From Forficula auricularia (taxonomy: Eukaryota; Arthropoda; Insecta; Dermaptera; Forficulidae): a stretch of DNA of 64,000 nt. Both the position numbers and the translations under genes were made by a program. Under the pieces are notes generated by a model. The model saw nothing but the letters and a program-made list of their open reading frames with translations, had not been told where the DNA came from and made no database searches. Below, one piece after another: positions 5,759 through 64,000 of this stretch (position 1 is its first letter; every line of letters starts with the position of its first letter). The stretch lies in the NCBI GenBank assembly GCA_024734495.1, contig JALMQS010000841.1, forward strand, positions 4,513,798-4,577,797, written 5' to 3'.

Positions 5759-5843
5759 TATTTTTTGACTTCTTCAGTGGCTCACTAAATGACTCAATTG
5801 TCTGATGTTATTGAGTTAGCCGTTGAAGAAGTCAAAAAATAAA
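5759..5843. repeat. Short foldback related to the hammerhead-like family
   Basis: Inverted arms carry GACTTCTTCAGTGGCTCA and its partner around an 8-base loop. The minus strand reads GCCA then CTGAAGA; the plus strand reads a decayed TTGAAGA, later followed by CGAAACGTTTGGC (5847-5860). The outer GCCA/TGGC can pair as in the copies at 19.5-19.7 kb. Just upstream, from about 5414, is a repeat end beginning ACAGGGTGTTTAGAA whose other end is not visible. Confidence 0.5.
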
Positions 5844-5860
5844 ACAACGAAACGTTTGGC

Positions 5861-7421
5861 ACATTAAAATTCGGTTTATAATAATTTAATTCTTACCCAA
5901 TTCCCTACGATTTCAATTAAAGAATTTTAAGTATGTATGCAATTAATGAAACATGTTTATATTTATTTTGTAGGGTGGTTGATAACAAGTAATCGATAAG
6001 GCAATCGATTCCTTAAAATTTTCAAATTTAGACATTTCTATTTTGCAATTATTTAATAAATCGTCTCGAATTCAGGTAAATGTCGTATTGCAAAGCCAGC
6101 GTTTCATTTGAAAGTTAATTAAGTTTGATATCGGTAATCCAGCATGAGCCCAGCACTAAGATGTGAAATAATAGAGGAGGCTTAACCTACAATGTGTTCT
6201 CTCGAGGACAATGGCCGCCTTGTACTCCAGAGTGGCAGGCGAGGGTGTAAACCCTTTATCGGTGCAAATACATATAACAGAGAACTAGAGGCCTCAAGGG
6301 CTCTCGCTCTTCCATCTATCTCTCTATAGCTGCGGATAAATATAAAATGACGATAGAATTTATGAACTGATAAAAGTGGCCAGCAAGCCCCTCGCAGAAG
6401 AATATTAAAAGTTATATATTCCGGAGAGGATAGATAAATATCGGATAGGCTTTGTTGTCCAGCTGTTTCTATTCGATATTTGAAATACAATCCAGTTAAT
6501 AATCTAAAACAAGTGAAATTATAGGGATAGGTATCGTGATTTATTTCTATCGAATTTATAAAATGATTTATTATTTAACATAGGGTACTATATACCAGAT
6601 ACGGGGATTAAATTAAATAGCAAATGAATTAAAGAGCTTAAGAAAATAAGACAATTATTAGTCTTAAAAAAGTCTTCGATTTTTAAAACTGTTGTCAAAA
6701 AAGTATTTTTCATTAAATTAAACAAATTAAAAAATCTAGTCCACATATCCTTATTTTGAGAAATTGAAGTTCAAAGTTTTCAGATCCATTGTTTTTAAAT
6801 CGACATAGTTCATTTATTACACTGAGTTTTAGAAGATACACAACTAAAAATACTATGGGACCAAGTGGACTTGGTTCATTTGTAAAAAGAAAGTCTTTTG
6901 TACATTAAAAGAGTTACAAATTTTTAAAAAATAGACTTGGTTCACTCCAATTCTCAGCCGACGAATATATAGGCCATTATACGAGTACATATAGGAGATT
7001 TATTTTATAAATAAAAAACCTAATTATAAAATTTACTTGAAAATAATTTTTTTGAAGTGAAAGTAAGTAGGTTTAAGAAAAAGGGCCCTTATCTCCACCT
7101 GGTCATAATTAAGCTAATGAAGCATCACCTGTTTCTAGAGAAACTACTTATCAAAACGCTTTTTGCCCCGTCAAAAAATTCAAAAAAATTGACTCAATTT
7201 TTGAATATTTAGAAGTAAAAAAGACTTAGTTTTGAGTATAGTTCCTTAAATTTTGACAACTTTTAAGCAGACGAAAATAAGGGATTTCTTCTATTTTTAC
7301 CCTCGCTATTATTCAATTCCGAATGAAAATTTACTGCTGAATTCAAATATGTAATCAAAAATTATACCCGCATTTAAATCATATTTTTGCCATTCCTGAA
7401 AAAACTGGTAGGTGAAGATAA
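5861..7421. other. Unassigned DNA with a GC-richer island at about 6180-6480
   Basis: The island contains a 102-codon minus-strand ORF (6182-6490) with no recognisable domain. Its base composition differs from the surroundings, so it may be a conserved regulatory block or an old element. Nothing firm can be said of the rest. Confidence 0.3.
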
Positions 7422-7801
7422 GGGGACGTCCATAAATTACGTCACACGAATTTCAAGATTTTTAGACCCTCCCCCCTATGTCACATTCTGTCCCATGTTC
7501 AATGAGCCCCCTTGTATTGTGACGTCACAATATCACTTTTATTATTTATTTGAAAAAAAATTAAGTGTTTTTATAAAAATTGCTTGCTTACAATTTTTCG
7601 TCTAGATTTATTTTACCAACATTTTTAGGTTGGAATAATATAATAATAACCTGAAATCTAAAAAATATATTTGAAAATTTTTAAAACTTTTTAATTTGAC
7701 TTTTGTGACATCACAATTTTTAAGATCCCCGGGTCCCATTTTGTCACAAATCTGAGATGCCCTCCCCCCTTACAGTGTTACGTAATTTATGGACGGCTCC
7801 T
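7422..7801. mobile_element. TIR element of the GGRRCCGTCCATAAATTACGT family, copy 1
   Basis: The left end GGGGACGTCCATAAATTACG matches in inverted form the right end (CGTAATTTATGGACGGCTCC). Internal TGACGTCAC and TTGTGACATCACAA segments form further inverted pairs, and C/T-rich runs sit near both ends. There is no ORF of note. The same family recurs at 22323-23701 and, inverted, at 25725-25895. Confidence 0.65.
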
Positions 7802-7892
7802 TAGGACACTTTTCCCTGACACTATTACATATATCTTTGAGTACGAAATAAATAATTCGTTCTATGATGTGTATGTATGTGATGTGTATGTA

Positions 7893-8481: not shown

Positions 8482-8483
8482 TA

Positions 8484-9086
8484 TATTTGTATATATTTCC
8501 GCTCTAAGTTCACTCATTCAATCAGAAAATTATTATTTCATCTGATTATATTATTGGTTTTCGTATTTTTAAGATTCTATATTTGCTCTATAAATGGTTT
8601 TTAAAAACATATGTGAGGGTATATAGAAATAAATTGCGAACGATTTCCTTTCGTTGTTCTTGTCAATCGAGAATCCCTTTGGATTTCTCTTTTGGTTTCA
8701 ATTAATATTGATAAGCCCCCTGTGAACTTCTAGCCTTGATTGTCTTGACTTTTTATTTCCTGAGGAGCGTCGTTCAATTGGTTAATTTATTCGAGTTGAT
8801 TGCCTGGCCAGGAAGGACCTCAAAATAGAACAAGGACCATTTCTCATTTATCTTGCTGGTGGTCCCCCGAGAATAGGTCCCTCCTCTGCAACTCACCTGT
8901 ACATGGTTTATGCAGGAATTCCTTCTGCAAAATTAACCACTCACCTTTTTCAATCTATTTATTTATTTATTTATTCATGAAAACCCAATGCAATAAATTA
9001 TTTATTATTATTTAAATGCCATAAAACTAATAAGATAATTTTTCTTTAATATTTAAATATCTAAATATTTAAGAAGATGAAAATGA
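8484..9086. other. Unassigned DNA
   Basis: GC-richer at about 8790-8950 but without a convincing ORF or element ends. A run of TTTA repeats lies near 8960. Confidence 0.3.
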
Positions 9087-9150: not shown

Positions 9151-9223
9151 TCCACAAAATATCGATTCTTGCAATAATCTCTAAACACCCTCATCTTGAC
9201 TTTCAGTTAGAAAAAATATCTTA

Positions 9224-9536: not shown

Positions 9537-11689
9537 TAAAAAACTAATAAAAAAGGGAGGGTCGCGAAAAAACTGGGATATATCTAAATTAAAAAATAAG
9601 GAAACCCAAAAACTTTTCGAAAACGTAATGAATAAGAAACTGGAAGAAAAAACACCCACAAATAATAAAGAAGAAGAAATCGAACAAGAATGGAATGCTA
9701 TGAAATCAAGCCTGACTGAAACAGCCAACGAAGTCCTTAAATCAAAGAAAAACGAAATTAAAAAGCCATGGGTAACAGACGAAATACTGCAACTGTTTGA
9801 CGAACGAAGAAAATTTAAGAACAGAAAAGACGAAGAAGGGAAAGAAACATATAAAAAATTAAGATGGAAAGTTATAAGAGAATGTAGAAAAGCAAAAGAA
9901 AAAATGATTCAAGAAAAATGTAAAGAAGTCAACGAAAATCTAGTATTGGGAAAAGTTGATGTAGCCTATAGGGCAATAAAAAGAAATTTTCAAGAAGACA
10001 AGCCAAAAAGCAAGAACATAAGAGATAAAGGAGGCCACATTATTCTAAACGAAAACGAACAGGCAAATAGATGGAAGGAACACCTAGAAGAACTCTATGG
10101 AGAAGAAAAAACAATGAACCCAATAGAAGAAGAAGAATCTGTGGACGAAAACGAATTAGGAGACCCCATACTCAGGTCAGAATTCGAGACAGCTTTGAAG
10201 GAACTAAAAAATAATAGAGCACCCGGAATAGACAATATACAAGCTGAAATCCTAAAGAACTCTGGGGAAAAGGCACTTGACAAACTCTTTGAACTAATTA
10301 GCAAAATCTATAAATTGGGAATCATCCCAAAAGATTTCCAAAAAAACAAAATAGTCACACTTCCCAAAAAGACAGGCGCGGATAAATGTGAAAATTTCAG
10401 GACCATTAGCCTAACCTCACATGCCTCCAAAATCCTAACCAAAATAATCCAGAGAAGAATAGAACAAAGAGTTGAAGAAAATCTGGGGGAAGACCAGTTC
10501 GGCTTTAGAAGAAACAGAGGCACCCGAGAAGCAATTCTCTCTCTTAGACTAATAATAGAAAGGGCTTTTATCAGGGAAGAATCTGTCTACATCGGATTCA
10601 TAGACCTAGAAAAAGCATTCGATAATGTCAATTGGGAAATTATGTTTAAAATATTAAAACAGGCGGGAATAAAATTCAGAGAGAGAAGACTAATCTACAA
10701 TCTATATCAAAACCAGACGGCAATTATAAATATTGGTGATGAACACAGAGAAGCCAAAATAAAAAAAGGTGTAAGACAAGGATGTGTGCTGTCACCCATG
10801 ATTTTCAACTTATACATAGAAGAAGCGATTAAAGAATTCAAAGACAAAATTGATACAGGTATAGAAATCCAAGGTCAAAAGATCGCTATGTTAAGATTTG
10901 CCGATGACATTGCCCTTCTAGGAAGCAATAAAAAAGAATTAGAGGACGCCTTGAATGGAATTAACCAAATCCTAATAGAAGAAATCAAAATGAAAATAAA
11001 CAAGAATAAAACCAAGGTCCTAGTATGTACAAAAAAAGAACAAACGAGACAGGAATGCATCAAAATTAACCAAGAAAACCTAGAAGGAGTTAAGGAATTC
11101 CGCTACCTAGGAAGTAAAATAACATGGGATGGGAGGAGCAAAAACGAAATTAAATCAAGAATTGCCCAAGCAAAAATGGGGTTTAATACAAAACAAAAAC
11201 TACTATGCTCCTCCTCAATCAGCTTAGCAAACAGGAAGTTGCTATTGAAGACATATGTATGGAGCATAGCCATGTACGGGTGTGAAACCTGGACAATTAG
11301 AGAAGAGGAGAGAAAGAGATTAGAGGCTTTCGAAATGTGGTGCTACAGAAGAATGATGAATATCAAATGGATGGATAAAATTACAAATGAAGAAGTTCTT
11401 GGAAGAATCGGAGAAAGAAGAACCTTGTGGAAGAGTCTGAAGAAGAGAAGAGGTCAGATGATGGGGCACACACTGAGACATGGGGGACTGCTTAGGGATA
11501 TCTTGGAGGGGGAGGTGGGAAAGAAAAGGGGAAGGGGAAGAACCAGATTAGAATATTTCAACCAAATAATTGGGGATATGGGATGCCAGACATTTAGAGA
11601 GGTTAAACAGCTGGCGGGGGACAGAGTCGAGTGGAGACGGATTGTTGCATCAAACCAGTCTTAGGACTGTATACTCAATGATGATGATG
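9537..11689 (+). mobile_element. 5'-truncated RTE/BovB-clade non-LTR retrotransposon
   Basis: Bounded by a 14-bp target-site duplication. It ends, after a 3' UTR of only about 15 bases, in an ATG/TGA trinucleotide microsatellite (11678-11689), a tail type usual for RTE elements, which lack long poly(A). The reading frame is open upstream of the first ATG to the truncation point, so the missing part is the 5' end with the AP endonuclease domain. The intact RT frame and nearly perfect duplication indicate a recent insertion. Confidence 0.85.
9628..11664 (+). CDS. Reverse transcriptase of RTE-clade retrotransposon (N-terminally truncated)
   Basis: RNA-dependent DNA polymerase that would copy the element's RNA at a nicked target site. 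The 678 codons from this ATG are uninterrupted, but the same frame is open upstream to about 9541, so the ATG is arbitrary. Seen in order: a Lys/Glu-rich linker with KKPWVTDEIL (about residue 45-55); RT entry ELKNNRAPGIDNIQAEILK (from about 190); FIDLEKAFDNVNW with a catalytic Asp (about 324); GVRQGCVLSPMIFNLYIEEA (about 381); the catalytic FADD box in LRFADDIALL (about 420); the RYLGSKITWDG block; and a C-terminal YGCETWT segment (about 548) with the DRVEWRR-type ending shared with BovB. The endonuclease domain is absent. Codons are strongly A-rich, unlike a host gene. It could act only on a supplied endonuclease-cut target. Confidence 0.93.
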   Translation: MNKKLEEKTPTNNKEEEIEQEWNAMKSSLTETANEVLKSKKNEIKKPWVTDEILQLFDERRKFKNRKDEEGKETYKKLRWKVIRECRKAKEKMIQEKCKEVNENLVLGKVDVAYRAIKRNFQEDKPKSKNIRDKGGHIILNENEQANRWKEHLEELYGEEKTMNPIEEEESVDENELGDPILRSEFETALKELKNNRAPGIDNIQAEILKNSGEKALDKLFELISKIYKLGIIPKDFQKNKIVTLPKKTGADKCENFRTISLTSHASKILTKIIQRRIEQRVEENLGEDQFGFRRNRGTREAILSLRLIIERAFIREESVYIGFIDLEKAFDNVNWEIMFKILKQAGIKFRERRLIYNLYQNQTAIINIGDEHREAKIKKGVRQGCVLSPMIFNLYIEEAIKEFKDKIDTGIEIQGQKIAMLRFADDIALLGSNKKELEDALNGINQILIEEIKMKINKNKTKVLVCTKKEQTRQECIKINQENLEGVKEFRYLGSKITWDGRSKNEIKSRIAQAKMGFNTKQKLLCSSSISLANRKLLLKTYVWSIAMYGCETWTIREEERKRLEAFEMWCYRRMMNIKWMDKITNEEVLGRIGERRTLWKSLKKRRGQMMGHTLRHGGLLRDILEGEVGKKRGRGRTRLEYFNQIIGDMGCQTFREVKQLAGDRVEWRRIVASNQS

Positions 11690-13009: not shown

Positions 13010-13714
13010 GTAAGATCGAAGGGCATTCTAATTGGAAATGCAACACAAAAAACATCTTTAAGTGATTCGAAATCGATAAACTTTACTATTAAGTGGATGT
13101 AACTTTTCCCTGTTGGGGCTGATACAGGGAAATAGGAATTTCAATCCAAGTATTTGGAAGCCATCTAAGGAGCTATTATACATTGGATACACCTCTTCTG
13201 CCAGGAATGTTATCGACATAATGAAATTTGATTAAATTCCTTGAATAGAAAACCTTCGGGCTAACAATGGAAAATAAAATTACTTTACAGTTTACTTGGG
13301 GGAGAGAAAAAACAAGTTTTATTAAATAAATAACACTTTAGGGATTGGATTAAATATTCAAAGACTTTAATGAGTAACAAGCAACAAAAATTAAACTTGA
13401 TTGCTGTAATTTTTTGTTTCAATTTAGTGAACTGGAAAAAATTTAAATTACTCAAATCATCGGTGGTTATAAAATGAAAATTCCTACTGAAATCATTATG
13501 ATTAGATTTTGATCTGAAAACAAACCATTTTGAACTCTTATTTTAGAATTGTCATTAATTTATCTACACTTTTTAGCAAAAACCCTAAGTTACAAGTAAA
13601 GTTTTGTCTATAGTCTTAGACGAAATAGTAGAAAGTTTGAGCTATTTATAAAATCTCTAAATGAAGCAATGGGAATTACCAAAGTCTGCCTCTTGATTGG
13701 AAATAAAACTTCGT
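13010..13714. other. Unassigned DNA
   Basis: No ORF, repeat end or inverted repeat was recognised. Confidence 0.4.
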
Positions 13715-13950
13715 AACTGAAAGTAATGGAAGGTAGCCCAGGGTTAGTGAGAAAAGAAAAAATTAACACATCCAAATAAGGTGTAATTTATTGGAACCCT
13801 TAGAAACCCTGAAGAAGGAAGGAAGAATCCTCTGAAACGTCCGGTTTGAAAGGAAAGGAGGAAGGATTCCAATAAATTACACCTTATTTGGATATGTGTT
13901 AATTTTTTCTTTCCACACTACCCCTGGGCTGCCTTCCATTACTTTCAGTT
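13715..13950. mobile_element. Foldback element, GGAAGGCAGCCCAGGG family copy 1
   Basis: Outer ends AACTGAAAGTAATGGAAGG and CCTTCCATTACTTTCAGTT are inverted; arms continue inward for about 80 bp each. The unpaired centre (about 13798-13865) carries one hammerhead-like motif. Related copies lie at 19051-19330 and 36413-36753, with a solo arm at 9087. Confidence 0.75.
13804..13847 (+). ncRNA. Hammerhead-ribozyme-like motif (decayed)
   Basis: AAACC then CTGAAGA (C3 at 13809), an AGGA/TCCT hairpin, GAAAC and GTC, then CGGTTT, which would pair with AAACC apart from one inserted C. The inserted base and the CT between stem II and GAAA make activity unlikely. It matters as part of the series. Confidence 0.25.
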
Positions 13951-14656
13951 AAAATTTCTACGAGTCAGTCTCTCTCCAGAGAAAATTTCGTGCAAATGAA
14001 ATAAAACTTCGTCTTTTGAAAGATCGTCCAAACTCTCTCAGTTCTTTGAAAACGTCACAATAGCCGTCAACTTTTTGTCCTTAGACATATATGGTCATCC
14101 CATACTCAGACAGACGTATGGAATCTAAGGTTCATACAGATAAACAAGTTGTAGCTTTGTTTAAACACAAAACATATGACATATCGTAATTTGTAAGGGT
14201 TTTTATCCAAAGTCTTATGAAAAAACTGAAAAAGTGAGTTGTCTAGTATGATTTTTTATGTTAGTCTTATCTGTGCAAGTTATTTTATAGTGAGAGACTA
14301 CAAATAACAGTTAGACCAGAATGCATTCTGATCTTTTTTTCCTCATTGTTGCAATAAAATGACTTTCCAAATACATCCTGACAAAATCAAAACTAGAAGT
14401 CAAAACATGTTTCCGAATAGGAATAGCTCTCTCATTAACAATATCTAATCTTGGTTCATGTTGTCGAAGTTCTCCCAATAAATATCCGTAATTTAAGTTT
14501 TACGAGTTTTTGCCAATATTTTTTCTGAGGAAAACTTTCTAACTTGGAATGGAAAAGAATAAATAAAGGGTGGATGTGGAATGGAGGGGAGGGGAGTGCT
14601 CTGAAAGATATTCTCCATTTATAGAAATATCGTTATTTATTATATAGCTAGAGTTT
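13951..14656. other. Unassigned DNA
   Basis: Mixed-composition sequence with no recognised feature. Confidence 0.35.
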
Positions 14657-19050: not shown

Positions 19051-19330
19051 TGATTGATAAGTGATGGAAAGGCAGCCCAAGGATAGGGAAAAAGATTCTC
19101 TCGAATAAAATAGATTTATTGGATATGCATTTTTTTCTCATTCACAAACCAACGTTTCGGACGATTTTCCATCCTTCTTCAGGGTCACTATAAAAATAAA
19201 GATAAAATTCAATATACAACGGAGGCATCATTTTTTGAGTGATGAAAAAATGAATATCCAATAAATCTATTTTATTTGAAAGAATTTTTTCACTATTCTT
19301 GAGCTGCCTTTCCATCACTTTATCAATTAA
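19051..19330. mobile_element. Foldback element, GGAAGGCAGCCCAGGG family copy 2
   Basis: Outer arms TGATTGATAAGTGATGGAAA and the inverted TCCATCACTTTATCAATTA continue inward (CAATAAATCTATTTTATTtg and partner). The interior is asymmetric and carries one hammerhead-like motif on the minus strand. Confidence 0.7.
19147..19186 (-). ncRNA. Hammerhead-ribozyme-like motif
   Basis: On the minus strand: GACC, CTGAAGA (C3 at 19182), one extra A, stem II GGATG/CGTCC (with one U-G pair) around GAAAAT, then GAAACGTT and GGTT. GGTT can pair with GACC (three Watson-Crick pairs and one G-U). The extra A before stem II departs from the strict consensus. Confidence 0.35.
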
Positions 19331-19462: not shown

Positions 19463-19502
19463 ACCAGACGTTTCTTCAATTTATTTTGACTTCCTCAGTG
19501 GC
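19463..19502 (-). ncRNA. Hammerhead-like motif, weak stem II
   Basis: Minus strand: GCCA, CTGAGGA, AGTC, an AT-rich stretch, GAAACGTC, then TGGT. TGG pairs with CCA, so the first stem-I pair is U-A rather than the G-C of other families. No stable stem II is visible. Confidence 0.25.
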
Positions 19503-19678: not shown

Positions 19679-19721
19679 GCCACTGAGGAAGGGAGAAAAA
19701 TAAATTGAGGAAACGTCTGGG
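19679..19721 (+). ncRNA. Hammerhead-like motif, weak stem II
   Basis: Plus-strand partner of the motif at 19463-19502: GCCA, CTGAGGA, a long AT-rich spacer, GGAAACGTC, TGG. Stem I keeps three pairs and stem II is not supported. Confidence 0.25.
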
Positions 19722-21406: not shown

Positions 21407-22094
21407 TTTTTTTTTTTTTTTATAATTATTATTATTTTTTTATTTAATTTCATTTAAATTGAGTAGGTAAACAATTATTTTTATAGAGAAATGTTTGCGG
21501 AATTTAACAGAACAAAAGTCACATTGATAGATAGATACATACATAGATAGATAAATATATAAATACATACAGGTGAAGCTAATATAAAGCGTGTGAAAAC
21601 AATACCTACGCGTACATAGCGCTTTTTAATGTTTTTTTTCGAGAGAAGCTTTATACATGGTTATATCAAAAGAACGAAATTAAATTTGTTTTTGTGTAAT
21701 CTTAGGAGATTAGATTTGTGCGCGAGTGGCAATGATAGCGATAGCGAAATAAATTCACGAGTCAAACAAAATCAAAGATAAAACGAATATATGTTCAAAG
21801 AGAGAAAAATCCTCCCCATCAGCCCCACTTTGAAGGGAACAAGGGTGGTAGATAGCAAGAGTATGGCTGCGTTTGTGTGAACGACGAGGGATGAAAAACT
21901 CGGCACGTACTTCTGACATGAGTAAATAAGAGAGGCTCGGCGCACGTGGCTTTTGCCACCCTCTCACATCGCTACAAGAAATAAACTACACACAATCGCT
22001 GGTCATATATCATTTGGTAGATCTCGGCATTAATATTTCAGAGACGTGCCAAATTCGCTATAAAAGAATTATTCCATTTAATTTAATGTTCGTT
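21407..22094. other. Unassigned DNA
   Basis: GATA-type simple repeats lie at about 21524-21570, then a moderately GC-rich stretch (about 21700-21970) whose 70-codon minus ORF has no recognisable features. Confidence 0.35.
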
Positions 22095-22810
22095 TTTTTC
22101 CCTCTGTAGATACGGGTTCATTTTATGCGTTATAATTAAATTATACTTTAATTAGACATCTTTGGCAATCATAATGAGTTATAATAAATATTAAATCATC
22201 GAGCTTAAATTCCGTCATATAATATTTACAGCCGGTTTTTCTACCTACGGTTGGTGGTCAATTTAGCTTTTCGAAATCGAAATTGAAAAAGCGAATCTTT
22301 TTCAAGACTCGGTACGCTATTTGGGGCCGTTTATAAATTACGTCACACGAATTTCAAGATTTTTAGACCGCTCCTTCCTGTCACATTTTCATTGAGTATT
22401 GTGACGTCACACTCACTTTTATACCCTTATTGCTTGCTTACAATTTTTTTTTTCTCTTTAGATACGGTTTCATTTTATGCGTTATAATTAAATTATACTT
22501 TAATTAAACATCTTTGGCAATCATAATGAGTTATAATAAATATTAAATCATCGAGCTTAACATTCAGTCATATAATATTTACAGCCGGTTTTTCTACCTA
22601 CGGTTGGTGAACAATTTAGCCTTTCGAAATCGAAATTGGAGAAAAAACGAGTCTTTTTCAAGACTCGGTATGCTATTTGGGACCGTCTATAAATTACGTC
22701 ACACGAATTTCAAGATTTATAGACCCCTCTTCCTTGTCACATTTTCATTGAGTATTGTGACGTCACACTCACTTCTATACCCTTATTGATTGCTTACAAT
22801 TTTTCGTCTA
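22095..22810 (+). repeat. Direct tandem duplication, period about 353 bp
   Basis: Two units (about 22095-22449 and 22450-22810) share long matching blocks, for example CAGCCGGTTTTTCTACCTAC at 22229 and 22582, and both include the start of the CCGTYTATAAATTACGTCAC element. They differ by scattered substitutions, so the duplication is not recent. Confidence 0.75.
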
Positions 22811-22849
22811 TATTTATTTTACCATTATTTTCAGGTTGGAATAATAATA

Positions 22850-23308
22850 CAGTCGACTCTCGATAATTCGAATTTTTCGATAATTCGAACTCTCTTCAGC
22901 TGTTAACTTCGCTAAATCGAAAAAATGCTGTGTATTTTGATAAACTCGATAACTCGAAATCCTTTTCGTAGCAAGAGGGGTAGAGAACATTCTTTAATTC
23001 GATCTAGGCCACTTCCCCTCTATAATTCGAATTTTTCCTAGTAATGTTCACTCCTCATTTTCCCAGCCAAGCCATATCGAAACAAAAACTATTCTTAATT
23101 TTTTTAATTACTTATGTTATTATTCTATTGCAATGTTAATACATATGTAATTTTTTTGTCGTTTTCATTATTTTTACTTTTTTACTTGAGGCTATATATA
23201 AAATTCATAAGGTCATACATATTTTCAAAAAATCTTACTAATTCGAAGTCTCGATAATTCGAATTTTTCTTGTAGTCTCTGGGATTTCGAATTATCGAGA
23301 GGAGACTG
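22850..23308. mobile_element. pogo/Tigger-like MITE
   Basis: Ends CAGTCGACTCTCGATAATTC and its near inverse (GAATTATCGAGAGGAGACTG), flanked by TA (22848-22849 and 23309-23310). The TCGATAATTCGAA repeats near both ends are usual for pogo-type elements. At 459 bp it has no transposase. Confidence 0.75.
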
Positions 23309-23427
23309 TACCTTCAAACTAAAAAATATTTTTGAAAATTTATTAATTTGGGTTCTGTGACATCACAATTTTTAAGATCCCAAGGCCCCCTGTCACATTT
23401 TCTCACAAATCTAAAATGCCCGCTCCC

Positions 23428-23662
23428 CCCCCTTTTTTTTTATTTTTTTTATTTATTTAATGTCACCGGGAACAAAGCCCATTTAGACAGCACATAAGTA
23501 AAGTGTTAGTAGGGTTAGTGGGGGAGCCGAGTTTTCAGCCGGTAGAAATTTTTATTCGCCAGCTAGGATCGAACCCCGGCCTCCCATTCCAACATCGTCA
23601 TAATCGATCGATGTCGAAACGAGGCCAGTGCGTTAGCCAACTGAGCCAACCCGGCTCCCCCG
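23428..23662 (-). mobile_element. tRNA-derived SINE, family B
   Basis: On the minus strand the head has a near-consensus pol III A box (TGGCTCAGTTGG, 23637-23648) and a B box (GGTTCGATCC, 23566-23575), then a body (GTGCTGTCTAAATGGGCTTT) and an A-rich 3' end that appears as T/A on the plus strand. A 5'-truncated relative lies at 34681-34830. Confidence 0.75.
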
Positions 23663-23701
23663 CTCCCCCTTTACTGTGTGACGTAATTTATGGACGGCCC
23701 C

Positions 23702-25700
23702 TTTGCAGTTTCGGTGAATTAATAATTTTCGTTTACCTAACCCATTTTTGACCAGATGTTCGATTTTTATAACGGCAGTCATAACTATTATCAATATTTT
23801 TGTTTCTTTGTATGATAACATTGGATTTCCATGAAACTTTTAGTTATTTGACTGTGAGACATTTTTTTTCATTCTTGCATCTGTACCTCTGTCTCAAGTG
23901 GGGAAATGGGGATAAAATAATCCCTTTTGTAGAGACTTTTTCAAATAAATGGTCTTTAAATATTTTATCCAAAATAAAATTACAAACTCACTGATCAGGT
24001 TATATTACCTAAGACTAGGCAACAATGTTTTTAATTAGTACTTCTGGATGTTAATTTCATTGTTCGAAAAAGTGTCCGTTGGCCACTATTTGGCATTATT
24101 TTTTTCACTTAGTTTGTTCAATGAAGAAAATATATTATTCTTAATTTCAATTTTTTTCTTCTATCCAGGCTCAATTATTTGAAACTTTCTTGTTTAGTTA
24201 CTTCATATATAGCCTCAAAAAATTATTGGGGTGCATTCAAATTATATGAAAAGATTTTTTGAATGAGAGAAGCAGTGTTGTTGATAACCTCTTTTGAGCC
24301 TTTTAAATTAGGATATATTAATCAGCCCATAATTAAAAAATAAGTATTTAATTGATTGGATGTATCTCTGATATTTAGACACCCTTAGAACTATACAAAT
24401 AGCCAAAGGTTTAGTTTTTCCTTGTTTTGAGGGATTCCCAATTTAATGCAAATGATATGTGCATTAGAAATATTTAAAAGGAACAAATAGTAATAGACAA
24501 CATGGGAAAGTTTACCAGGTTCACCAGACACGGGAATTATTGTCATAGTTTGTTAGGCTCATTAAATAGTGACTCAGGGCTTTAATTGAACTAAACCGAT
24601 TAATTTGACTCTAGTTTTCTAACTAGGGGTTGTTGAGGGCCGCGTATTCGAGAAGCTATTTAAAAAAAGTACAATTAAGAAGCTCACTAAAAGGTAAAAA
24701 ATTGTCAAGTTCTTATTTTTAAATACCAATCTTAATCCCGTATTTACATTTTCTAAAATATTAATTATTTTAGTAATTAAAATTTCTACAATAAAAGCTC
24801 CTATTTTGCACATTTATATATAGGTATTAATTATTTTGTCCCAATGTCTGTTAGTGAATGGGTGGTTGGCTAGTGTAGATTTTTAACTAATAATAGGTGG
24901 TCATAAAACTTGTAGTATTTGATTTATAGAGTTAATGCTGCAGCGCCATCTGTGGCTTGAATTGGTACCAACCATGACGCGTGATGCGTGATTCGTGATG
25001 GCTCAATCCCATTTACTGCCAAGTAAAATAAAAAGTGTGCAAGGCGCACCAAAAGAAGTTATCACTTCAAAAGATTCTAATAAATTTTTTAACATTTTTA
25101 ATTTTTAGAGATCAATATTATTAGTATGATGTTTCAATAGATTATTGAGAAATTAATAAGTGATTCCATTTTTTTTTCAATTCTCATGAAATCTGACGAA
25201 AGAAGTTGATAAATATTTATTGATGACTTGATAAAAACCCAAGATCGATATTCGATAATTAATAGATCCATAAAAGTAGATTAAATCAGCCGGGGGGCGT
25301 TGGCTTTAATCCAATATAAAAAGTTCAATAAATAAATAACAAATGCAGCGGCAAGTTATAACCGTGTCTGTCCTTAAGATGAACTACAGCCCTTCGAGAC
25401 TCGAGTAAATATTTGAGAAACATCGTCATATAATAAATCTAAAAAATTGTTTCGACGGATATAATTCAGATATAAGGAAACAACATTAATCCGATGGGCT
25501 GCAATAAATATCGATTAATGTTGACATTTAAATAAACTAGTGTGCATACAACATAAATTTCTCTTATTCTCTTTTAATAACAAACCACAAATCTATCAGA
25601 CTAATATCGTAGACGACCTGACTATTACCGTTCCTCTAGAATATTTTTAGTGTTGAGATTTCAATGCTTTTAACACAGTTTTATAAATGTAACAAATGTA
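23702..25700. other. Unassigned DNA
   Basis: No element ends were recognised. A GC-richer spot at about 24945-25015 with several CGTGATG repeats stands out. Short ORFs are not convincing. Confidence 0.35.
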
Positions 25701-25983
25701 TCGAATTATCGAGAGTCGACTGTATTATTATTCCAACCTGAAAATGATGGTAAAATAAATCTAGACGAAAAATTGTGAGCAAGCAATAAGGGTATAAAAG
25801 TGAGTGTGACGTCACAATCCTCATTGAAAATGTGACAGGGAGGAGCGGTCGAAAAATCTTGAAATTCGTGTGACGTAATTTATAGACGGCCCGAAATAGC
25901 GTACCGAGTCTTGAAAAAGATTCGCTTTTTCCTCCAATTTTGATTTTAAAAGCTAAAATGACCACCAACCGTAGGTAGAAAGG
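25701..25983 (-). repeat. Inverted partial copy of the 22.24-22.87 kb composite
   Basis: Reverse-complement of the earlier block, running from the first 24 bases of the pogo-like MITE (TCGAATTATCGAGAGTCGAC) through GACGTCAC and GACGTAATTTATAGACGG to CCACCAACCGTAGGTAGAA. Because the junction with the MITE is included, the composite was copied after the MITE had inserted. Confidence 0.7.
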
Positions 25984-26490
25984 TAACAATGTATAAGGAA
26001 ACAACTATTCTACAGTTTTGTATAAAAATTGACCATAATATTATTATAATTTTTAATCAATAGATCACAGAGAACTGAAGAAGATAAGAAGAATTGATAA
26101 TGGATCAAAAAGAAACATTTCAAATTAGATCCAAATCAACCAATTTCGCTTATCCCTATGACTCTTAAAGATTTAAACTCTCTTACTTTCATCATATATA
26201 TATATTCTCTATATTATCATGTTATGATAAAGGATATAATGTGAAGTATTGCGATCTCCTACCTGGGTCCTTACACTTTGAGAGCTTCTATCTCCAAGGT
26301 GAAAAAGTTAATTTCATTTTGTGACTTCTAGGAGTATGGATTCGATGCCCTTAATAGTTTGACACCGGATTTAAAACATAAAACCATATATTGTGGTCCC
26401 CAGAGGCCAAAAAGTGACCAAAAATCCATTGGTCAGTGCGTATGTATGTGCCCCCCTGCGTTCACCTTTCACCTATTCCTTTATTATATA
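25984..26490. other. Unassigned DNA
   Basis: AT-rich, becoming GC-richer near 26380-26460. No gene recognised. Confidence 0.35.
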
Positions 26491-30760: not shown

Positions 30761-31081
30761 CGAGGGGTGAACCGCGACCCAATATGCTGTACACCTACTT
30801 CCAAATATTTCCAAGTACTTCCAAATATTTCCAAGTACTTCCAAATATTTCCAAGTACTTCCAAATATTTCCAAGCACTTCCAAATATTTCCAAGCACTT
30901 CCAAATATTTCCAATCACTTCCAAATATTTCCAAGTACTTCCAAATATTTCCAAGTACAAAGCACTTCCAAATATTTCCAAGCACTTCCAAATATTTCCA
31001 AGTACTTCCAAATATTTCCAAGTAATTCCAAAATACTTCCAAAGAGGTGTACACCTACTTCCAATCGCGGATCACCCCTCT
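30761..31081. mobile_element. hAT-like MITE with internal minisatellite, copy 2
   Basis: Begins CGAGGGGTGAACCGCGAC and ends GATCACCCCTCT, flanked by an exact 8-bp duplication GTTCAAAC (30753-30760 and 31082-31089). The interior is eleven 20-bp units (ACTTCCAAATATTTCCAAGT) with one 7-base interruption after the eighth, then GGTGTACACC. Long ORFs on both strands across this array (up to 180 codons) merely repeat one 20-residue peptide and are not genes. Confidence 0.85.
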
Positions 31082-31123
31082 GTTCAAACCTTCGAATACT
31101 AATAACCCAAAGATTAGGAGAAA

Positions 31124-31232
31124 TAAGTGGATATCGATGAGGCAGTCCAAAAAAAAGAAGATAATTTACACTATCTTTTTATTCATAAAACCTTTTTTTG
31201 GACTGCCTCAACGATATCCACTTAATTCACTT
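31124..31232. repeat. Foldback, GATGAGGCAGTCCAA family, centre deleted
   Basis: AAGTGGATATCGATGAGGCAG is inverted at the right (CTGCCTCAACGATATCCACTT). Same arm as the element at 43190-43468, without its hammerhead-like motifs. Confidence 0.65.
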
Positions 31233-31239
31233 ATCAGTC

Positions 31240-31977
31240 CGTCTCCAAAATTACTCCAATCTTATTAGGAGAAATCTTTCTATTTTTATTTGAACAGCTT
31301 ACGAATTATTATTTTTAAAAATAAGGTTAAGCTATTCAAGTTTGATCGACTGTTCATTTTCCCACTTAGTTTAAATATACTCAGCTATTTTAAGTGGTCT
31401 AATTTCTATTAAACTTTACCTATTTTAAGCGAAACAAGACAAGGGTGGCAACGCTAGATTGGAATTTGAACTCGAGATTGTTTTTTTTAAAGACAAATTT
31501 CAAAGACAAAACTTCTATTTTTCCAATTATCTCCTCTTAAACAAATACCCACCGAGATCGAATACTATTTCGAGCTTTCAAGATTGACAGTCAAAAGGAA
31601 ACTAAACGTGTATCTAATCTTAGAACGAAATTAAAATAATTAATTGTGATCTTGATCGCGCGGCTGGTTGCCTATACGCCAGGCGGCGCTGCCATCGGTC
31701 TATTTTAAAAGCTGATTTAAAAGCACAGACTAGGCCATTGTACAACCTTTCAGATTTTGATTTAAAAATTGTGAATAAGACAGAGGTCGTCAACCTTTTT
31801 GAGGAGACGGTCATATTAAAATAATTATAATAAATTATATAAAAAAAATATATTTTATTTCAATTAAAAACTGTTTTTGAAGCCAATTTAGTTTAATTTT
31901 TGGTTGCCGCGTATTATAATTTATTCATTTTTGACTTATGATTAGTGACCTTAAAATTCATTTAGGCGACTCACATT
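31240..31977. other. Unassigned DNA
   Basis: A GC-rich spot at about 31645-31705 lies within a short minus ORF; no identity. Confidence 0.35.
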
Positions 31978-35655: not shown

Positions 35656-36412
35656 CCCCCTCCCCAAAAAAAAAAAAATTGGGAACTAATTGATTTGGAT
35701 GTGTGTCTGTGCTAGCAAAATCCCAATAAAAGATACATCCCAGAGAATAATCAGATTATTTTTTATGATTTTGCTCTTTTAATGTGTTCTTTTAACCAAC
35801 AATTTTGTTTTCTAACCTTTTCATATAAAACAAAGTACCTTTGTTCAAATAAAATAATAAACTATTTGTGCTTTGTGGATTTGAATGTTTTGTACTTTCA
35901 ATTCGAACAGCCGTTACAAGCCTTTTGTGACAAAGGGTTGGCCCTTAGGGCTTCACCTGTCAGTGAAGATCCAAGCAATATATATTTAACTAAAATTTTC
36001 ATCATTCAAAAGAAGTATATTTTCATATAAAGTTTGAATAATTAAATAATTGAAGAGAATTTGAAAAAGCGTGTGTGATTCATCATTGCCCTTGGGAATT
36101 TAAAATCTAAAAATCAATCCGTCTGAATCCAATAAATTGTTTGATGTAGATGTGTCGTTCGTTACTCCACCCTCCGAAAATCCCAACAATTAAAAAATTC
36201 AATCGAATTAAAAGTGAAATATAAAACAGAGAGTAAAAGTCACAAAAGGAATTTTCGAAAAATCTCTTGAGAGTTTGGATTCAAATCAATTTTTCCTTTT
36301 CACTTTTCAAATGAATTTCAAAGCAAAGATTTGAATTAAAAACATATAAATAAATTTTTTTGCAACGAAATTTTCTCTGGAGAGAGACGGACTGGTAGAA
36401 ATTTTAATTGAA
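35656..36412. other. Unassigned AT-rich DNA
   Basis: An 82-codon ORF (35782-36030) has no recognisable domain and AT-driven composition. Confidence 0.35.
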
Positions 36413-36499
36413 TGTAATGGAAGGCAGCCCAGAGATTGTGAGGAAAGAAAAATTAACACATATAAAATAAGGTGTAATTTATTGAATCCTTCCTCCTTC

Positions 36500-36549
36500 C
36501 TTTCAAACCGACGTTTCGGAGGATTTTCCCTCTCTTCAGGGTTTCAAAG
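36500..36549 (-). ncRNA. Hammerhead-ribozyme-like motif
   Basis: Minus strand: CTTTGAAACC, CTGAAGA (C3 at 36539), a GAGG/CCTC hairpin with one unpaired C, GAAACGTC, then GGTTTGAAAG. Stem I has five pairs, one G-G mismatch and four more pairs. Confidence 0.4.
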
Positions 36550-36629: not shown

Positions 36630-36681
36630 CTTTGAAACCCTGAAGAAGGAGGGAAAATCCTCCGAAACGTCGGTTTGAAAG
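36630..36681 (+). ncRNA. Hammerhead-ribozyme-like motif
   Basis: CTTTGAAACC (36630-36639), CTGAAGA (C3 at 36640), one extra A, stem II GGAGG/CCTCC (36648-36652 and 36659-36663), GAAA, a two-base stem III ACGT, then a cleavage-type C at 36671 and GGTTTGAAAG. Stem I pairs 9 of 10 positions. The only departures from the type I hammerhead core are the extra A at 36647 and the loop-less stem III, which could work only as a dimer. Confidence 0.45.
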
Positions 36682-40131: not shown

Positions 40132-40253
40132 AACTGTTTTAGTAGAGTATTTTAAAAAATTCAAATTGAAACAATTTAAAATATTTATGTGAATGTAATT
40201 TTTGTTTTTCAGAGGATGAGGAACAAAATAAGTGTTTGTTTATGACCTATCAA

Positions 40254-40294
40254 TTGCAACGTTTCGCCACTTTTATTGCAGCTTCTTCAGGCTC
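40254..40294 (-). ncRNA. Hammerhead-ribozyme-like motif, solitary
   Basis: Minus strand: AGAGC, CTGAAGA (C3 at 40290), one extra A, stem II GCTGC/GTGGC (with G-U pairs) around AATAAAA, GAAACGTT, GC. Stem I is only two pairs (GC/GC). No flanking palindrome was seen. Confidence 0.3.
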
Positions 40295-40299
40295 TACAA

Positions 40300-41820
40300 A
40301 GGAGCAAATACATACATCAAAAAACACATTCAAAAACAAAAATTCACTAAACTCAAAAAATTACATTTATAAATTATGGAACTGAATCCCAATGATGGGA
40401 TTTATGTGAATATTCAAAAAGTAAATGTCTCAAAAATTTGGAAATTTTCAACTAGCTAATTACTCAGGTCAAACCACAGGTTATAAGCTACCCAACACCC
40501 TCCAATACAGCCCTGCGTATTATTTTAGAAAATCTTAATTTTGCTCAAGGGATTAAAAAGTTTTACTAAATTGAACTATTTTTGTTGTCGTTATCATTTA
40601 ATAAAAGTGACTTTGTAGCAGCAAACGTTATTTTATATCCCCATTTCAACTTGAGAAGTTGGACTGTAAAAAGAGATTGAAATCAAGATATAAAATTAAA
40701 AGTGTTTGGTGGTGTTTCAAGTGGAAAAGAGCTCTGACAGTAAAACAGACATCCGAACTCTGAAGTAGGGGGATCTGCTGTTTGGTTTCCAAGTCTTGAG
40801 TTGAGTCTGTTTGACTAATGGACTAATGGGCGAGCACGTTTTAAGCCAGGATACCTAGCCCAGGATCACGGTGCTGAATATTCCAGGACGTGACGGCTAT
40901 AGATCCGTCTTCTTATGGAAGTTTCACTTCCAGCAGGCTTCAAACTATCCAAATGCGATCAATGGCTTATATTTAATATCAACATATACATATACACGAA
41001 TGTAAAGATGAAATAGCATAAAAAAATAAAACATTTACGAGTGAAATTCAGGCATATTAAATTATATATAGAGTGGCGGAATGGCAAATGTTTTCGAAAT
41101 TAAATCAAGTACGGTTTATTGTAAGGGGCCAGGAGTCTGTATATTTTTATTCAGTATTTTATGAAAATAATGGATATATTTTCAGCCAACCCCTTGAGAA
41201 TCTACTGCCTACTAGAAGTAAACACTGATGGACAAAATTGATTCGGACATAACATTTATTATGTTATAAACAAGGGAATTCTAGAGATACTACACAGGCT
41301 AAGCTCAATCAAAATGCTGAATTTACCAAAATTATCTTATTAGGTAACCAACAATAATTATGTATTAGTAAAATTTACGAGTATACCCTGGCAGATTGAA
41401 AACAAAACTTATTTTTAAAAATTTTATCATTGGACTGAATTAAAAAAAAAAAAGTTAAAATGGTCATACAGATGATTTTACCATACAGTCCTAATTATTT
41501 TTCTTTCTGATATCTAATCAAGTAACGGGATTCTTTTCCCTTTGCTTTGTTTTTCGCATTGAAATAAATTGATTTCATTTGGAGTCAAGCAGCCAGCGGG
41601 TCAAGTGCTTACTTAATATTGGTATTTTATAGGTGTTGCGTTTTGTGCATTTTTAATGACTACAGGATTTCGGATAATTGTTCAAACCTTTATCAAAGCC
41701 AAGGTAAACATGTAAATACAATTTTTATAATCTTTTGGAAAATTTAATGATTCGAAAAATAAAAAACACCTCATATTTAGACAAATTGATTTTTTAAATT
41801 GAAAGTTTCAATTATTTTTG
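40300..41820. other. Unassigned DNA
   Basis: A moderately GC-rich stretch at about 40735-40935 has no ORF or ends. Otherwise AT-rich and unrecognised. Confidence 0.35.
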
Positions 41821-43252: not shown

Positions 43253-43299
43253 AAAAACCGACGTTTTGGAGGTTTATTCCCTCTTTCTTCAGGGTTTTG
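43253..43299 (-). ncRNA. Hammerhead-like motif with broken core
   Basis: AAAACC, CTGAAGA (C3 at 43292), GAGG/CCTC hairpin, then AAAAC where GAAAC is required, GTC and GGTTTT. Stem I has six pairs, but loss of the core G should abolish cleavage. Confidence 0.25.
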
Positions 43300-43359: not shown

Positions 43360-43403
43360 GACCCTGAAGAAGGAATGAATAAATCACCGAAAACGTCGGT
43401 TTT
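43360..43403 (+). ncRNA. Hammerhead-like motif, decayed stem II
   Basis: GACC, CTGAAGA (C3 at 43364), only a GG/CC closing of stem II, GAAAAC with one A too many, GTC and GGTT. Stem I pairs remain. Confidence 0.22.
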
Positions 43404-51545: not shown

Positions 51546-51785
51546 AAATAAAGTAAAGAAAATTTTGAAAATTTTTAGAAACTTTTTAAAATTTAAAATA
51601 TATAATACTAGGTAGGTTTCACACTCACTCCTTTATGAACTCCTGAAGATGGGCTTATACCCAGAAATATATATAGAGTCGTGCTAAACAAGGAGCTGAT
51701 CTTTTATTTTTGTGAAACCTACCTAGTATTTTATATTTTAAATTTTAAAAAGTTTCTAAAATTTTTCAAAATTTTCTTTACTTTA
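51546..51785. mobile_element. AAAGTAAAGAAAATTTT foldback with intact hammerhead-like centre
   Basis: Arms of about 85 bp (AAATAAAGTAAAGAAAATTT to ACTAGGTAGGTTTCAC and inverse GTGAAACCTACCTAGTATTT to CTTTACTTT). The unpaired centre of about 80 bp carries the motif at 51639-51679. Related damaged copies are at 12063, 17420 and 28515. Confidence 0.75.
51639..51679 (+). ncRNA. Hammerhead ribozyme candidate, best match in the window
   Basis: Every core position of a type I hammerhead is met. Stem I ACUC (51639-51642) pairs with GAGU (51676-51679). The CUGAAGA box runs 51643-51649. Stem II UGGG/CCCA (51650-51653 with 51660-51663) closes a six-base loop and abuts the core without extra bases. GAA (51664-51666) is followed by stem III AU...AU (51667-51674), and the cleavage-type A17 is at 51675. 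Self-cleavage would fall between 51675 and 51676. Stem I is short and no tertiary loop contacts can be judged, so activity is unproven. Confidence 0.5.
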
Positions 51786-59101: not shown

Positions 59102-59105
59102 TTAA

Positions 59106-60619: not shown

Positions 60620-60775
60620 TAATACTAATTTGAAAGTTTATAATTGGAAAATAAGGACAAGTTTTTTGAAGCCCTGAAGAAGTCGGCAAAGTCGACGAAA
60701 CGTTGGCTGATAAATAAAAAAGTCACACATGAAAACTAGTCCTTATTTTCCTATTATAAACTTTCAAATTAATAC
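60620..60775. repeat. Foldback inside the left arm of the giant repeat
   Basis: ACTAATTTGAAAGTTTATAA and AAAATAAGGAC at the left are inverted at the right (GTCCTTATTTTCC, TTATAAACTTTCAAATTAAT). The centre carries the motif at 60670-60708. A decayed counterpart sits at about 63690-63830 in the right arm. Confidence 0.65.
60670..60708 (+). ncRNA. Hammerhead-ribozyme-like motif
   Basis: AGCC (60670-60673), CTGAAGA (C3 at 60674), one extra A, stem II GTCG/CGAC (60682-60685 with 60693-60696), GAAACGTT, then GGCT (60705-60708). Stem I is AGCC/GGCU: the third pair is G-C where the 36.6-kb family has A-U. The extra A and loop-less stem III are the departures from the consensus. Confidence 0.42.
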
Positions 60776-62307
60776 AAATTATGGACGGACATGATAATAA
60801 TAATAGTTAGTTAGTACATTAACAAACTTTGTATACGCTCTAGCTCAAATACTAGTGTAAGTGTCAAAACGAAATTTTACATGTATTTTTTTCATATTGA
60901 GACTAAGGGCTGATTATAGTCGGAGAGCCCATGACCCATTTTTCATGAAGTGTTGTTTTTATTTAAAAAAAAGTGATTGATTCACGCTGACATTTTAATA
61001 GCGTCTTAATTATATGTTTTTAATAATACTTGCAAAAAGCCAGACACTTTTGCCGGGCTTTAACAATTGCCAGACGTCGAAATATCTTCTACGGATAGAT
61101 CCAGTCAAATTGTGCTCAAATGGAGAAAGTTTTGGGGTAGTTCTGATTTTTTGGATATATATATGTTTTTTGTGGCGCTGAATTCAACTCTGAGGTACCA
61201 CAGCCAAATTTCGTGACGCAACTTTGTAGAAAATGCAAAAAAAAGGTGAAATTTTCCATTTTTTGGCCGTTTTTGGCTTATAACTTGAAAACTATCAACT
61301 TTTTCTAAATAACCTTTCTATTCAAAATGAAAGGTCATAAAATTTCCTTCAAACTTTATTGTTTAGATTTTTTCTCCCGACCAACCGTTCGGGCTCAATC
61401 GACCCCAAAATTAAAGAAAATTTGAGCAAAACCATGATTTTGAATTTCACGAATGCATGATTTTTATTACAACAAATAGGAAAAATCCTATTTATTGTAC
61501 TCTAATGAGAAAAAAATAAGTTGTATACGATTTCCCCTTTCTTTTTCCAAATTCAGTCACCAAGTTCTAATCGTGTTTAACAGACCTGTCTGATGCACGG
61601 GGTTGGTTTCCTAGCCCAGGGTGTCCCAAGGGGTCTCAAAAACCTCCCTCAACATTAGTTCAACTCACAAAAGTTCAACCCTCTCAACCTGCCCCTCTCT
61701 TTTTCCGGCGGAATTGTCTTCCGATCCGAAAGGTCTTTCCGTTCAGTCAGCTCGGTTTATTGTACAACCCCAACCCCCTTAAGACCACCCTCTTCCGCCA
61801 GTTCGACTCTTTCGCCTTCTCTCCTCAATCATCCCCTGAGTGTCACCCTTTCAACGGTAATTCGGGACTTGAGTTGATTGTTTCTTCAAAGACTCTCTTT
61901 CGAATTGTTACTAATGCACTCAGCTGCCCTGCAAGGAAAAGAACTACTCGGCGCTAATTAAAATCTATCAGAACAATCGAATTAAATAAAAAAATCATTG
62001 TTCGATTAGGCATTGATATATATGGTAGAAGTAATTAAAAAGAAATTGAAAAGAAGTCTTCAAATGTATAAAAAAGTGAACCTCACAAGGAATGATTGCT
62101 TTGGTACATTAATAACTTATTTTTTAACGAATTCTCATTTTGAGGTCCTTATTTTTATTTAAAATCTATATTTAATTGAAAAGTATTTATTTTGCCGAGA
62201 GAAGCAGAGTTGTTGATTCATAAAGAGAAACAAAGAGGTTGTCCTCTGCTTGATGCAAATAAACATACACACATATACATATATATATTATTTATTCATT
62301 TGAGGCT

Positions 62308-62340
62308 AATAGTTTCGGAGGCTTGGCCTCCATCATCAGT
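62308..62340 (-). ncRNA. CTGATGA hairpin related to the hammerhead-like series
   Basis: Minus strand: ACTGATGATGGAGGCCAAGC then CTCCGAAAC. It has the CUGAUGA box, a six-pair GGAGGC/GCCUCC stem and GAAAC, but no pairing strand for stem I, so it is only a partial match. Confidence 0.2.
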
Positions 62341-62401
62341 CTTTTTTAATTATAATTATTATTTTTCATTGGGTCAGTTCGCGTGGATATTTTTTTCTTT
62401 T

Positions 62402-62494
62402 TTTTTTTTTTTTTTTAATGATATTAAAGTGAGAAGGAGATACACCAGAAGGTGCATCCCTAAAGGCCTGTATGGGATGGCCTCTTCATCATGA
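62402..62494 (-). mobile_element. 3' fragment of SINE family C at the palindrome centre
   Basis: Complement of the last 80 or so bases of the SINE at 56461-56830 (AATGATATTAAAGTGAGAAG, GGAGATACACCAGAAGGTGC) with its A tail seen as T on the plus strand. It is bracketed by GTGGATATTTTTTTC and its inverse. Confidence 0.7.
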
Positions 62495-64000
62495 AAAAAA
62501 AAAGAAAAAAATATCCACGCCATGATAAGCCCTTAGCTAACTCAAATGAGTAAGCAATATATATATATATATATTGACCAATGTTTATTAGTAAATTTGT
62601 TTCTCTTTAACGAATCACTAACTCTATATATAGAAGCAAAAATAAATACTTTCAATTAAATATAGATTTTAAAAACAAGGACCTCAAAATGAAGAATTCG
62701 TTAAAAAATAAGTTATTGTCTTTGCCGAAACAATGTTCACTTGTGAGGTTCACTTTTACTACATTTAATTATTATTTTTAATTACTTCTACCATATATAT
62801 GTGCCTAATCAGATAATGATTTTTATTTAATTCGATTGTTCTGATAGGTACAATGTCTTCCTTGCAGGGCAGCTGAGTGCATTAATAACAATTCTAACTG
62901 AGCCGATCAACTCAAGTCCCAGGCAGTGACACTCGAGGATGATGAAGAAGACAGCAGGCAACTTGGAAGAATGATGCTAGGGTAGACAACTATTCAACGG
63001 AAAGATCAATCCAGGGGTACAGGACGGACCAGAGCACCTAATGAGGAGATTTCTAGACCTGCACATCAGACAGATCTCGATAGGCGATTAACACAGGCTA
63101 TTTGGAAAAGGAATTATACCACAACATTTTTCTCATTGGAGGCCACTAACCAACAACAAAAATCATCATTCATTAATTCAAGATAAACAGAGTTTTGCTA
63201 GGCCTAACAGTACGGGGTCATTAATTCAGGAAAAAAATCAAACAATGAGACACGAGAGAAACACATGACCTTTCATTTGAACTCAGAAGGTTGATGGTTT
63301 TCAAGTTATAAACCAAAAACGGCACCCAACATGAAGTTGAACGCCACAAGCTATAACAACCCTCAAAAATCAGAACTACCCAAACTTATAAATTTTGAGC
63401 TATTTATTCCTCCGGCAAAATCTCGACATCTGGCAATTATTAAAGCACGGCAAGAAGCACAATGATGCATTAAAACATATAATTAGACATATTAAAATGT
63501 CAGCGTGAATCAATCATACCAAATAAAAATGACACATGAAGAAATGGGTCTCTTCTCCGACCAATCAACCCTTGATCTCAATATGAAAAATTACGTGGCA
63601 AAACTCGTTTTTATTACCACTAATGACTGAGCTAGGTACCAGCAAAGTTTGTTAATATACAACTAATATTAATGATATCATGTCCGTCCATACCTTGTTA
63701 ATTTGAAAGTTTATAATGGGAAGAATGGATGGTTTCGTAGTGTGACATTTATCAGCCAACGTTTCATCATTTCTCGACTTTGAAACTCAAAAAACTTGTC
63801 ATAGATTAATGATATAATACAGATATAATTAGACAAAGAATATTTTCCTGAAAATTTTTGAGTACCATATTCGATTGTTTAAAGATCTCAGTTTAGAAGA
63901 CAACACGCTTCGTGCTGTAAGGGTGTTCAAAGTGGCAATCATGTGTTTATACGATTAGGCAAATTCATGTGATTGTTATCTTTATGATCATAAACTTACC

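Follow-up and report, generated by a model that had tools for sequence, protein, structure and literature searches.

A hammerhead-like motif, putatively a variant of the minimal type I ribozyme, in Penelope-like elements and palindromic repeats of the earwig Forficula auricularia

Introduction

A 64,000-nucleotide stretch of the genome of the earwig Forficula auricularia (assembly GCA_024734495.1, contig JALMQS010000841.1, positions 4,513,798 to 4,577,797 of the forward strand; termed the window here and numbered from its first base) holds several families of foldback repeats in which one short motif recurs, with CTGANGA, a hairpin, GAAAC and GTY in the order of a hammerhead ribozyme. An initial annotation, made from the sequence alone, had listed eleven such sites and proposed that they were type I hammerheads of non-autonomous, retrozyme- or Penelope-like elements. 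Many thousands of copies of the motif occur in this genome, in Penelope-type elements and in short hairpin-shaped elements, and on balance we favour the view that it is a variant of the minimal type I hammerhead, borne by Penelope-like elements (PLEs) and by palindromic, non-autonomous relatives of these, with catalysis being putative.

Minimal type I hammerheads of PLEs were reportedly described by Cervera and de la Pena (2014) and by Lunse (2017). Their presence in PLEs is already known; the accessible portion of PMC7761336 gives them a minimal stem III, a location in pseudo-long terminal repeats (pseudo-LTRs) and a dispersal in thousands across animal genomes, and describes their role in PLEs as a continuing mystery. 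The earwig motif likewise has the type I order, a location in pseudo-LTRs and thousands of dispersed copies, and its predicted stem III is minimal; every representative has one inserted base ahead of stem II, which may set it apart. A second point of reference is the Poseidon PLE of the green anole, which carries a hammerhead that needed protein to cut, and whose enzyme both cleaves and extends the two DNA strands; it begins copying at two sites within the RNA, the interval between them forming an optional tail of 30-40 bp (PMC11167929).

Results

The motif recurs in the window and throughout the genome

The window is AT-rich, and scanning it for exact CTGANGA-N{6,30}-GAAAC gave 10 matches, compared to a mean of 0.62 and a maximum of 2 in 100 dinucleotide shuffles. 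Eight of the eleven annotated sites were among them, together with matches at 62312 and at 26075, the latter probably a chance occurrence as its stem is too long. The three remaining annotated sites have altered boxes: AAAAC for GAAAC at 43261 (-), GAAAAC at 43364 (+) and a GAAAT class at 51643 (+). A covariance model, R1, built from ten families (F1-F10) of which three were represented by window copies, found 12 matches in the window at E<=1 and 11 at E<1e-3 (three of these 11 having been in the model). These 11 comprised ten annotated sites and one further copy at 5815-5864, with 51635 reaching E=0.53 only. The recurrence noted in the initial annotation is confirmed (Table 1). When three contiguous pairs were demanded in each stem by a strict descriptor, five window sites passed, three with one inserted base before stem II, 51643 with none and the damaged copy at 36513 (-) with two; two other copies, 19683 (+) and 13809 (+), are not intact either.

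Table 1. Copies of the hammerhead-like motif, and elements containing them, in the window.
Position	Strand	Feature	Found by
5815..5864	+	eroded motif copy, T as first core base	R1
13715..13993	+	F1 element containing a motif at 13809-13838 (one additional C at stem I), between 15-bp direct repeats at 13700-13714 and at 13998-14012	pattern, R1
19154..19182	-	F5 motif	pattern, R1
19470..19498	-	F6 motif, head-to-head with 19683	pattern, R1
19683..19714	+	F6-type motif, weakly paired stem II	pattern, R1
36366..36394	-	3' tail of F1 foldback (CAGTCCGTCT ... GAGAAAATTTCG), on one arm only	
36513..36539	-	F1 motif, antisense partner in foldback, stem II shortened	pattern, descriptor, R1
36640..36670	+	F1 motif, intact, opposite arm of the foldback holding 36513	pattern, descriptor, R1
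40192..40397	-	truncated PLE-B copy containing a motif at 40261-40290 and a short inverted segment; duplication of 12 bp, ATTCACATAAAT	
43261..43292	-	F2-type motif with a substituted G in GAAAC	R1
43364..43396	+	F2-type motif whose GAAAC box has an additional A; head-to-head partner of 43261	R1
51643..51686	+	second-class motif (GAAATATATA), inverted arms 51549-51623 and 51711-51785 on either side	descriptor
60674..60701	+	F8 motif	pattern, descriptor, R1
62312..62339	-	eroded PLE-A-type motif copy	pattern

Across the whole genome (1.06 Gb in 845 contigs), CTGAAGAAGG-N{6,20}-GAAAC gave 11,730 + 11,461 = 23,191 matches, compared to 14 + 9 = 23 for the backwards pattern. Loci L001-L008 were obtained by a pattern requiring CTGAAGAAGG and L029-L048 were picked by eye from that listing, with close pairs favoured, which inflates the one-base count of the descriptor scan and the pair counts from the window and 20 regions given below; the window, the GIY-YIG loci, the families outside the CTGAAGAAGG pattern and a genome-wide no-insertion pattern provide less biased samples. 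Beyond this genome, a core pattern was matched in 21 viral contigs, most of which resembled chance by a check of the stems. R1 applied to these contigs and to L071 found 16 matches at E<=1, five of them at E<0.03 (best 26.2 bits), a control that is biased by the preselection of the contigs for the boxes. A PLE alignment search found no relative in the viral contigs and, in genome contigs of other organisms, one contaminant contig only, L071 (JAGLBD010000131.1), in which a PLE reverse-transcriptase (RT) fragment lies in a bacterial metagenome-assembled genome, presumably as eukaryotic contamination, and in which no motif was found.

Both main stems covary among divergent families

The ten families have little in common outside the motif: over the positions 21-60 nt away, mean identity is 0.30 on the upstream side and 0.32 on the downstream side. 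Within it CTGA.GA, the first base of stem II and GAAACGT are invariant, so that the CUGANGA and GAAA core boxes are unchanged except at N7, and the cleavage triplet between stems III and I (NUH) is GUC or GUU. In hammerhead register, 36 of the 40 stem I cells are paired, compared to 6-21 when the register is slid, and the whole F1-F10 alignment is paired in 93.3% of 90 cells (62.7% when shuffled), with two-sided changes in eight of the nine pairs. The covariation score was 0.854 relative to 0.221 for shuffled and at most 0.178 for slid alignments. Similarly, when 82 copies were clustered independently of this alignment, they fell into 15 groups, some of which are mutated relatives of one another, and permutation p values were 5e-5 for stem I and 1e-4 for stem II. 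The covariation that had been read from window copies in the initial annotation is thus borne out by two separate groupings.

These data bear on whether a single repeat was amplified many times and resembles a hammerhead by accident. Most of the genomic matches listed do belong to a few related GGAGG families; ten families that are only 0.30-0.32 identical beyond 20 nt nevertheless retain the core and covary, which makes such an accident extremely improbable.

In the predicted fold, the isolated F1 motif adopts a two-stem form. Stem I is open and, in the main class, the putative stem III would have only two pairs (AC/GU) and no loop; as ACGU is self-complementary, this would suit a dimer. The very short stem III recalls the newt satellite hammerhead, for which the available text of PMC6155905 describes action as a dimer, being suited to double-hammerhead cleavage, but stem III of the main class here is loopless and the motif lies inside hairpins. 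By its boxes, stem order and covariation the motif is supported as a minimal type I hammerhead, its catalysis being putative.

One extra base precedes stem II

The extra A reported in the initial annotation for most copies proved to be systematic, since all 11 representatives, the PLE of L049 included, have one inserted base (A or T) after CTGANGA. With one inserted base allowed, 38 of the 40 stem II cells are paired, compared to 14 with none, 19 with two and 17 with three. The descriptor matched 52 times in 341,365 scanned bases (and never in the reversed sequence), 49 times with one base, twice with none and once with two, a ratio inflated by the choice of most of the scanned DNA through a pattern containing the extra A. 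Genome-wide, a no-insertion pattern gave 309 matches, and many of the examples listed carry G in the inserted place. One or two bases between CUGANGA and stem II are allowed according to the part of PMC10085705 at hand. An extra base of this kind would widen the accepted hammerhead core.

A second hammerhead-like class, CTGANGA-N-stem-GAAATATATAT, was present in 12 copies in the DNA examined, inside palindromes with different outer arms (window 51549-51785 and L030, L032, L036, L041, L044 and L047). One unpaired base is usual among these copies, and 51643 fits with none.

Penelope-like elements carry the motif

Of 3,423 GIY-YIG candidates in the genome, 150 were scored and 20 loci were taken with 1.5-kb flanks. 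The motif lay within 1.5 kb of the GIY-YIG match in 16 of the 20 loci, six having the type found at 40261, nine having CTGATGATGAAGAC-like or GAGGGC stems and one (L027) having a changed first base. No motif was found by pattern near the GIY-YIG match in L009, L010, L013 and L014, yet R1 matched L009 at E=1.3e-5. At L049, two complete open reading frames (ORFs) of 858 aa and part of a third, with RVT_1 and GIY-YIG domains, repeat with a period of 2,909 bp and the motif lies between them, giving the tandem units with pseudo-LTRs that characterise PLEs. The L049 ORF has 215 related proteins, the named ones including Diabrotica, and the ORF of L019 also combines RT and GIY-YIG, with RVT_1 slightly under the cut-off. 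At L012, L023, L025 and L026 an ATG lies 77 nt past GAAAC, but as only 21-32 codons are open it was not taken as an ORF start, and the N-termini of 120 PLE proteins gave no usable trace of a translated motif.

The window itself contains a truncated PLE at 40192-40397, which shares 94% identity with PLE-B along 184 bp, with a 42-nt inverted piece and flanks of ATTCACATAAAT. Another PLE-B copy, in L026, is flanked by a 12-bp duplication, ATAGTGAAGAAA (identified by eye). Both copies have one end 68 nt and the other ~99 nt after GAAAC, one end being tail-less and one tailed. The Penelope-like assignment of the initial annotation is supported.

The commonest foldback looks like a retroposed palindrome

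Among the matches listed, neighbours within 1.2 kb were arranged head-to-head in 16 cases, convergently in two and directly in three (counted by eye), and 58 motifs in the window and 20 regions, partly picked for pairs, formed 20 head-to-head, three convergent and five direct arrangements. In 17 of these 20 head-to-head pairs one arm was tailed (CAGTCCGTCT or a variant) and the other tail-less (by eye); one of the other three had its tail-less arm cut short, two had no visible tail, and no pair was double-tailed. Twelve F1 units could be delimited, nine of which had direct repeats of 10-19 bp, compared to 3.8% of swapped flanks at >=10 bp, and nine of which contained one sense and one antisense motif. 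F1 foldbacks thus combine PLE-type ends, tailed and tail-less, with a duplication length like the 12 bp of the PLE-B copies, and the commonest foldback has the look of a retroposed palindrome, judging from its ends and flanks.

The centre of the palindrome, TAATTAAGAA, was exact in three of ten F1 pairs (L035, L036 and L044) and had one change in L038; L034 and L040 resemble it, and four shorter pairs (window 36511, L032, L033 and L037) are without it. A centre common to some copies indicates that already palindromic units were inherited, at least in part. For F1 this weakens the alternative in which every foldback arose by its own double insertion, such an insertion being possible as the origin of the palindromes.

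Foldback DNA elements and miniature inverted-repeat transposable elements (MITEs) also have long inverted repeats in many copies. Were the foldbacks DNA transposons or MITEs with the motif as a passenger, their long inverted arms and high copy number would be explained, but their duplications vary in length, their ends are asymmetric with an A-rich tail at one end, and their relatives here are retroelements; on the variable duplications and asymmetric ends, we rejected this origin as highly improbable.

Copying by an enzyme of the long interspersed nuclear element (LINE) type, with PLEs merely sharing the motif by descent, would account equally well for A-rich 3' ends and 10-19 bp duplications, and the window contains a long LINE-type RT ORF. 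The tailed and tail-less ends with 12-bp duplications, however, match those of the PLE-B copies, and the ends of the foldbacks match the two start sites of the anole PLE (PMC11167929), so that we regard a LINE-type copier as distinctly unlikely. The anole-like footprint supports copying by a PLE-type enzyme, which we infer to have moved the foldbacks. The LINE-type ORF (9628-11664, +) is open for 678 aa with an RVT_1 domain, its nearest solved structures include LINE-1 ORF2, and it is not a PLE.

The retrozyme part of the proposal was not supported. Animal non-LTR retrozymes resemble the earwig foldbacks in being small and non-autonomous with type I hammerheads, and PLEs have been proposed as the helpers that move them; in the passages available from PMC7229834 they are tandem repeats of 150-450 bp with canonical type I hammerheads, whereas the copies here are mostly in head-to-head, inverted pairs, with a single short array at 111-125 nt spacing. 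That array, at L042:4594-5100, consists of five direct F1 motif copies and could suit dimer cleavage.

Two further features of the foldbacks were observed. GG(A/G)CTGCC and CAGTCC(GTCT) recur in the tails of F1-F4, for example at window 36385-36430 (-), and could pair as a stem near the presumed RNA start sites. At window 31111-31244 a foldback with F2-like arms (GGACTGCC) and a CAGTCCGTCT tail on one side has no motif, as if its centre had been lost.

Discussion

The data are consistent with a scheme in which autonomous PLEs carry the motif between tandem ORFs and each arm of short palindromic, non-autonomous elements that move via RNA contains it too. An enzyme of the PLE type would make cuts ~12 nt apart in the two strands of AT-rich DNA, and copying of the RNA would start at one of two internal sites, 68 and ~99 nt after GAAAC in PLE-B and ~110 and ~150 nt after it in F1, so that an end either lacks a tail or has one of ~30-45 nt. 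Double insertions in head-to-head orientation may have given rise to the palindromes, which would then, at least partly, have spread as fixed units. Cleavage of the RNA would most likely occur in dimers formed through ACGU, or with the help of protein, on RNA free of the full hairpin. The Poseidon PLE of the green anole (PMC11167929) offers a close likeness, having an ORF with RT and GIY-YIG, tandem units, a hammerhead near the ORF and two start sites with an optional tail, but most earwig copies seen are short palindromes without an ORF.

Several results weigh against a cutting hammerhead carried by PLEs and their relatives. None of the Rfam hammerhead models matched, whether at the gathering score or with E relaxed to 5-10, so the type I hammerhead of the initial annotation stands by its boxes, stem order and covariation but not by these models; the extra base may help to explain the non-match. 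All 11 representatives have an unpaired base between CUGANGA and stem II, where strict hammerhead models have none. Some core insertions lower activity, according to the part of PMC3088659 available. The full hairpin has a predicted minimum free energy of -431.5 kcal/mol and buries the motif, so that any cleavage would be expected in single arms, in tandem arrays such as that of L042, in dimers or in RNA bound by the enzyme. The motif of PLE-A, the L049 type, scored only 13 bits with R1 (E 0.18), and its kinship is accordingly based on boxes and stem II. Three of the 12 F1 units have no duplication of >=10 bp, and no F1 tail was found on an autonomous PLE among the loci fetched. The anole PLE could insert in vitro without its ribozyme, and none of the reads terminated at the cut site (PMC11167929).

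The extra core base, the lack of an Rfam match, the masking in the hairpin and insertion by the anole PLE without ribozyme activity would all be expected if the motif were a conserved structure for RT binding or starting, descended from a hammerhead and no longer cutting. A pure binding hairpin, however, need not retain GAAAC-GTY and stem I, and all core positions that a hammerhead needs, GTY included, have stayed the same across ten families that differ in their stems. A non-cutting structure thus seems unlikely to us, though it deserves serious consideration, and we retain a putatively catalytic hammerhead variant as the preferred reading.

A bolder possibility, which we regard as speculative and rather doubtful, is that a hammerhead core in which an additional base after A9 is obligatory is common to several otherwise unrelated retroelement lineages of this genome, and that its top carriers are retroposed hairpins with one sense and one antisense ribozyme, in which the hairpin would mask cleavage so that only dimers, tandem arrays or enzyme-bound RNAs cut. 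Such hairpins would be ribozyme elements that gate themselves, and non-autonomous PLEs of a new kind. In the open-licence literature, no report was found of palindromic retroposed units with the motif or of a uniform inserted base, and searches of such papers for the motif strings returned unrelated matches only. The earwig genome, in which more than 20,000 copies from many families occur alongside tandem PLEs and the insertion ends are clean, would make the role of minimal hammerheads testable, and the palindromic units would tie the two start sites of the enzyme to a visible genomic footprint.

Other repeats in the window

Other repeats lie apart from the motif sites. A tandem array with a 179/357-bp period occupies 34840-35762, and a 356-bp tandem duplication lies at 22093-25981, with an inverted 281-nt arm ~2.8 kb off. 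Two distant minisatellites, at 3982-4122 and 30796-31042, have a nearly identical 20-bp unit (TACTTCCAAATATTTCCAA).

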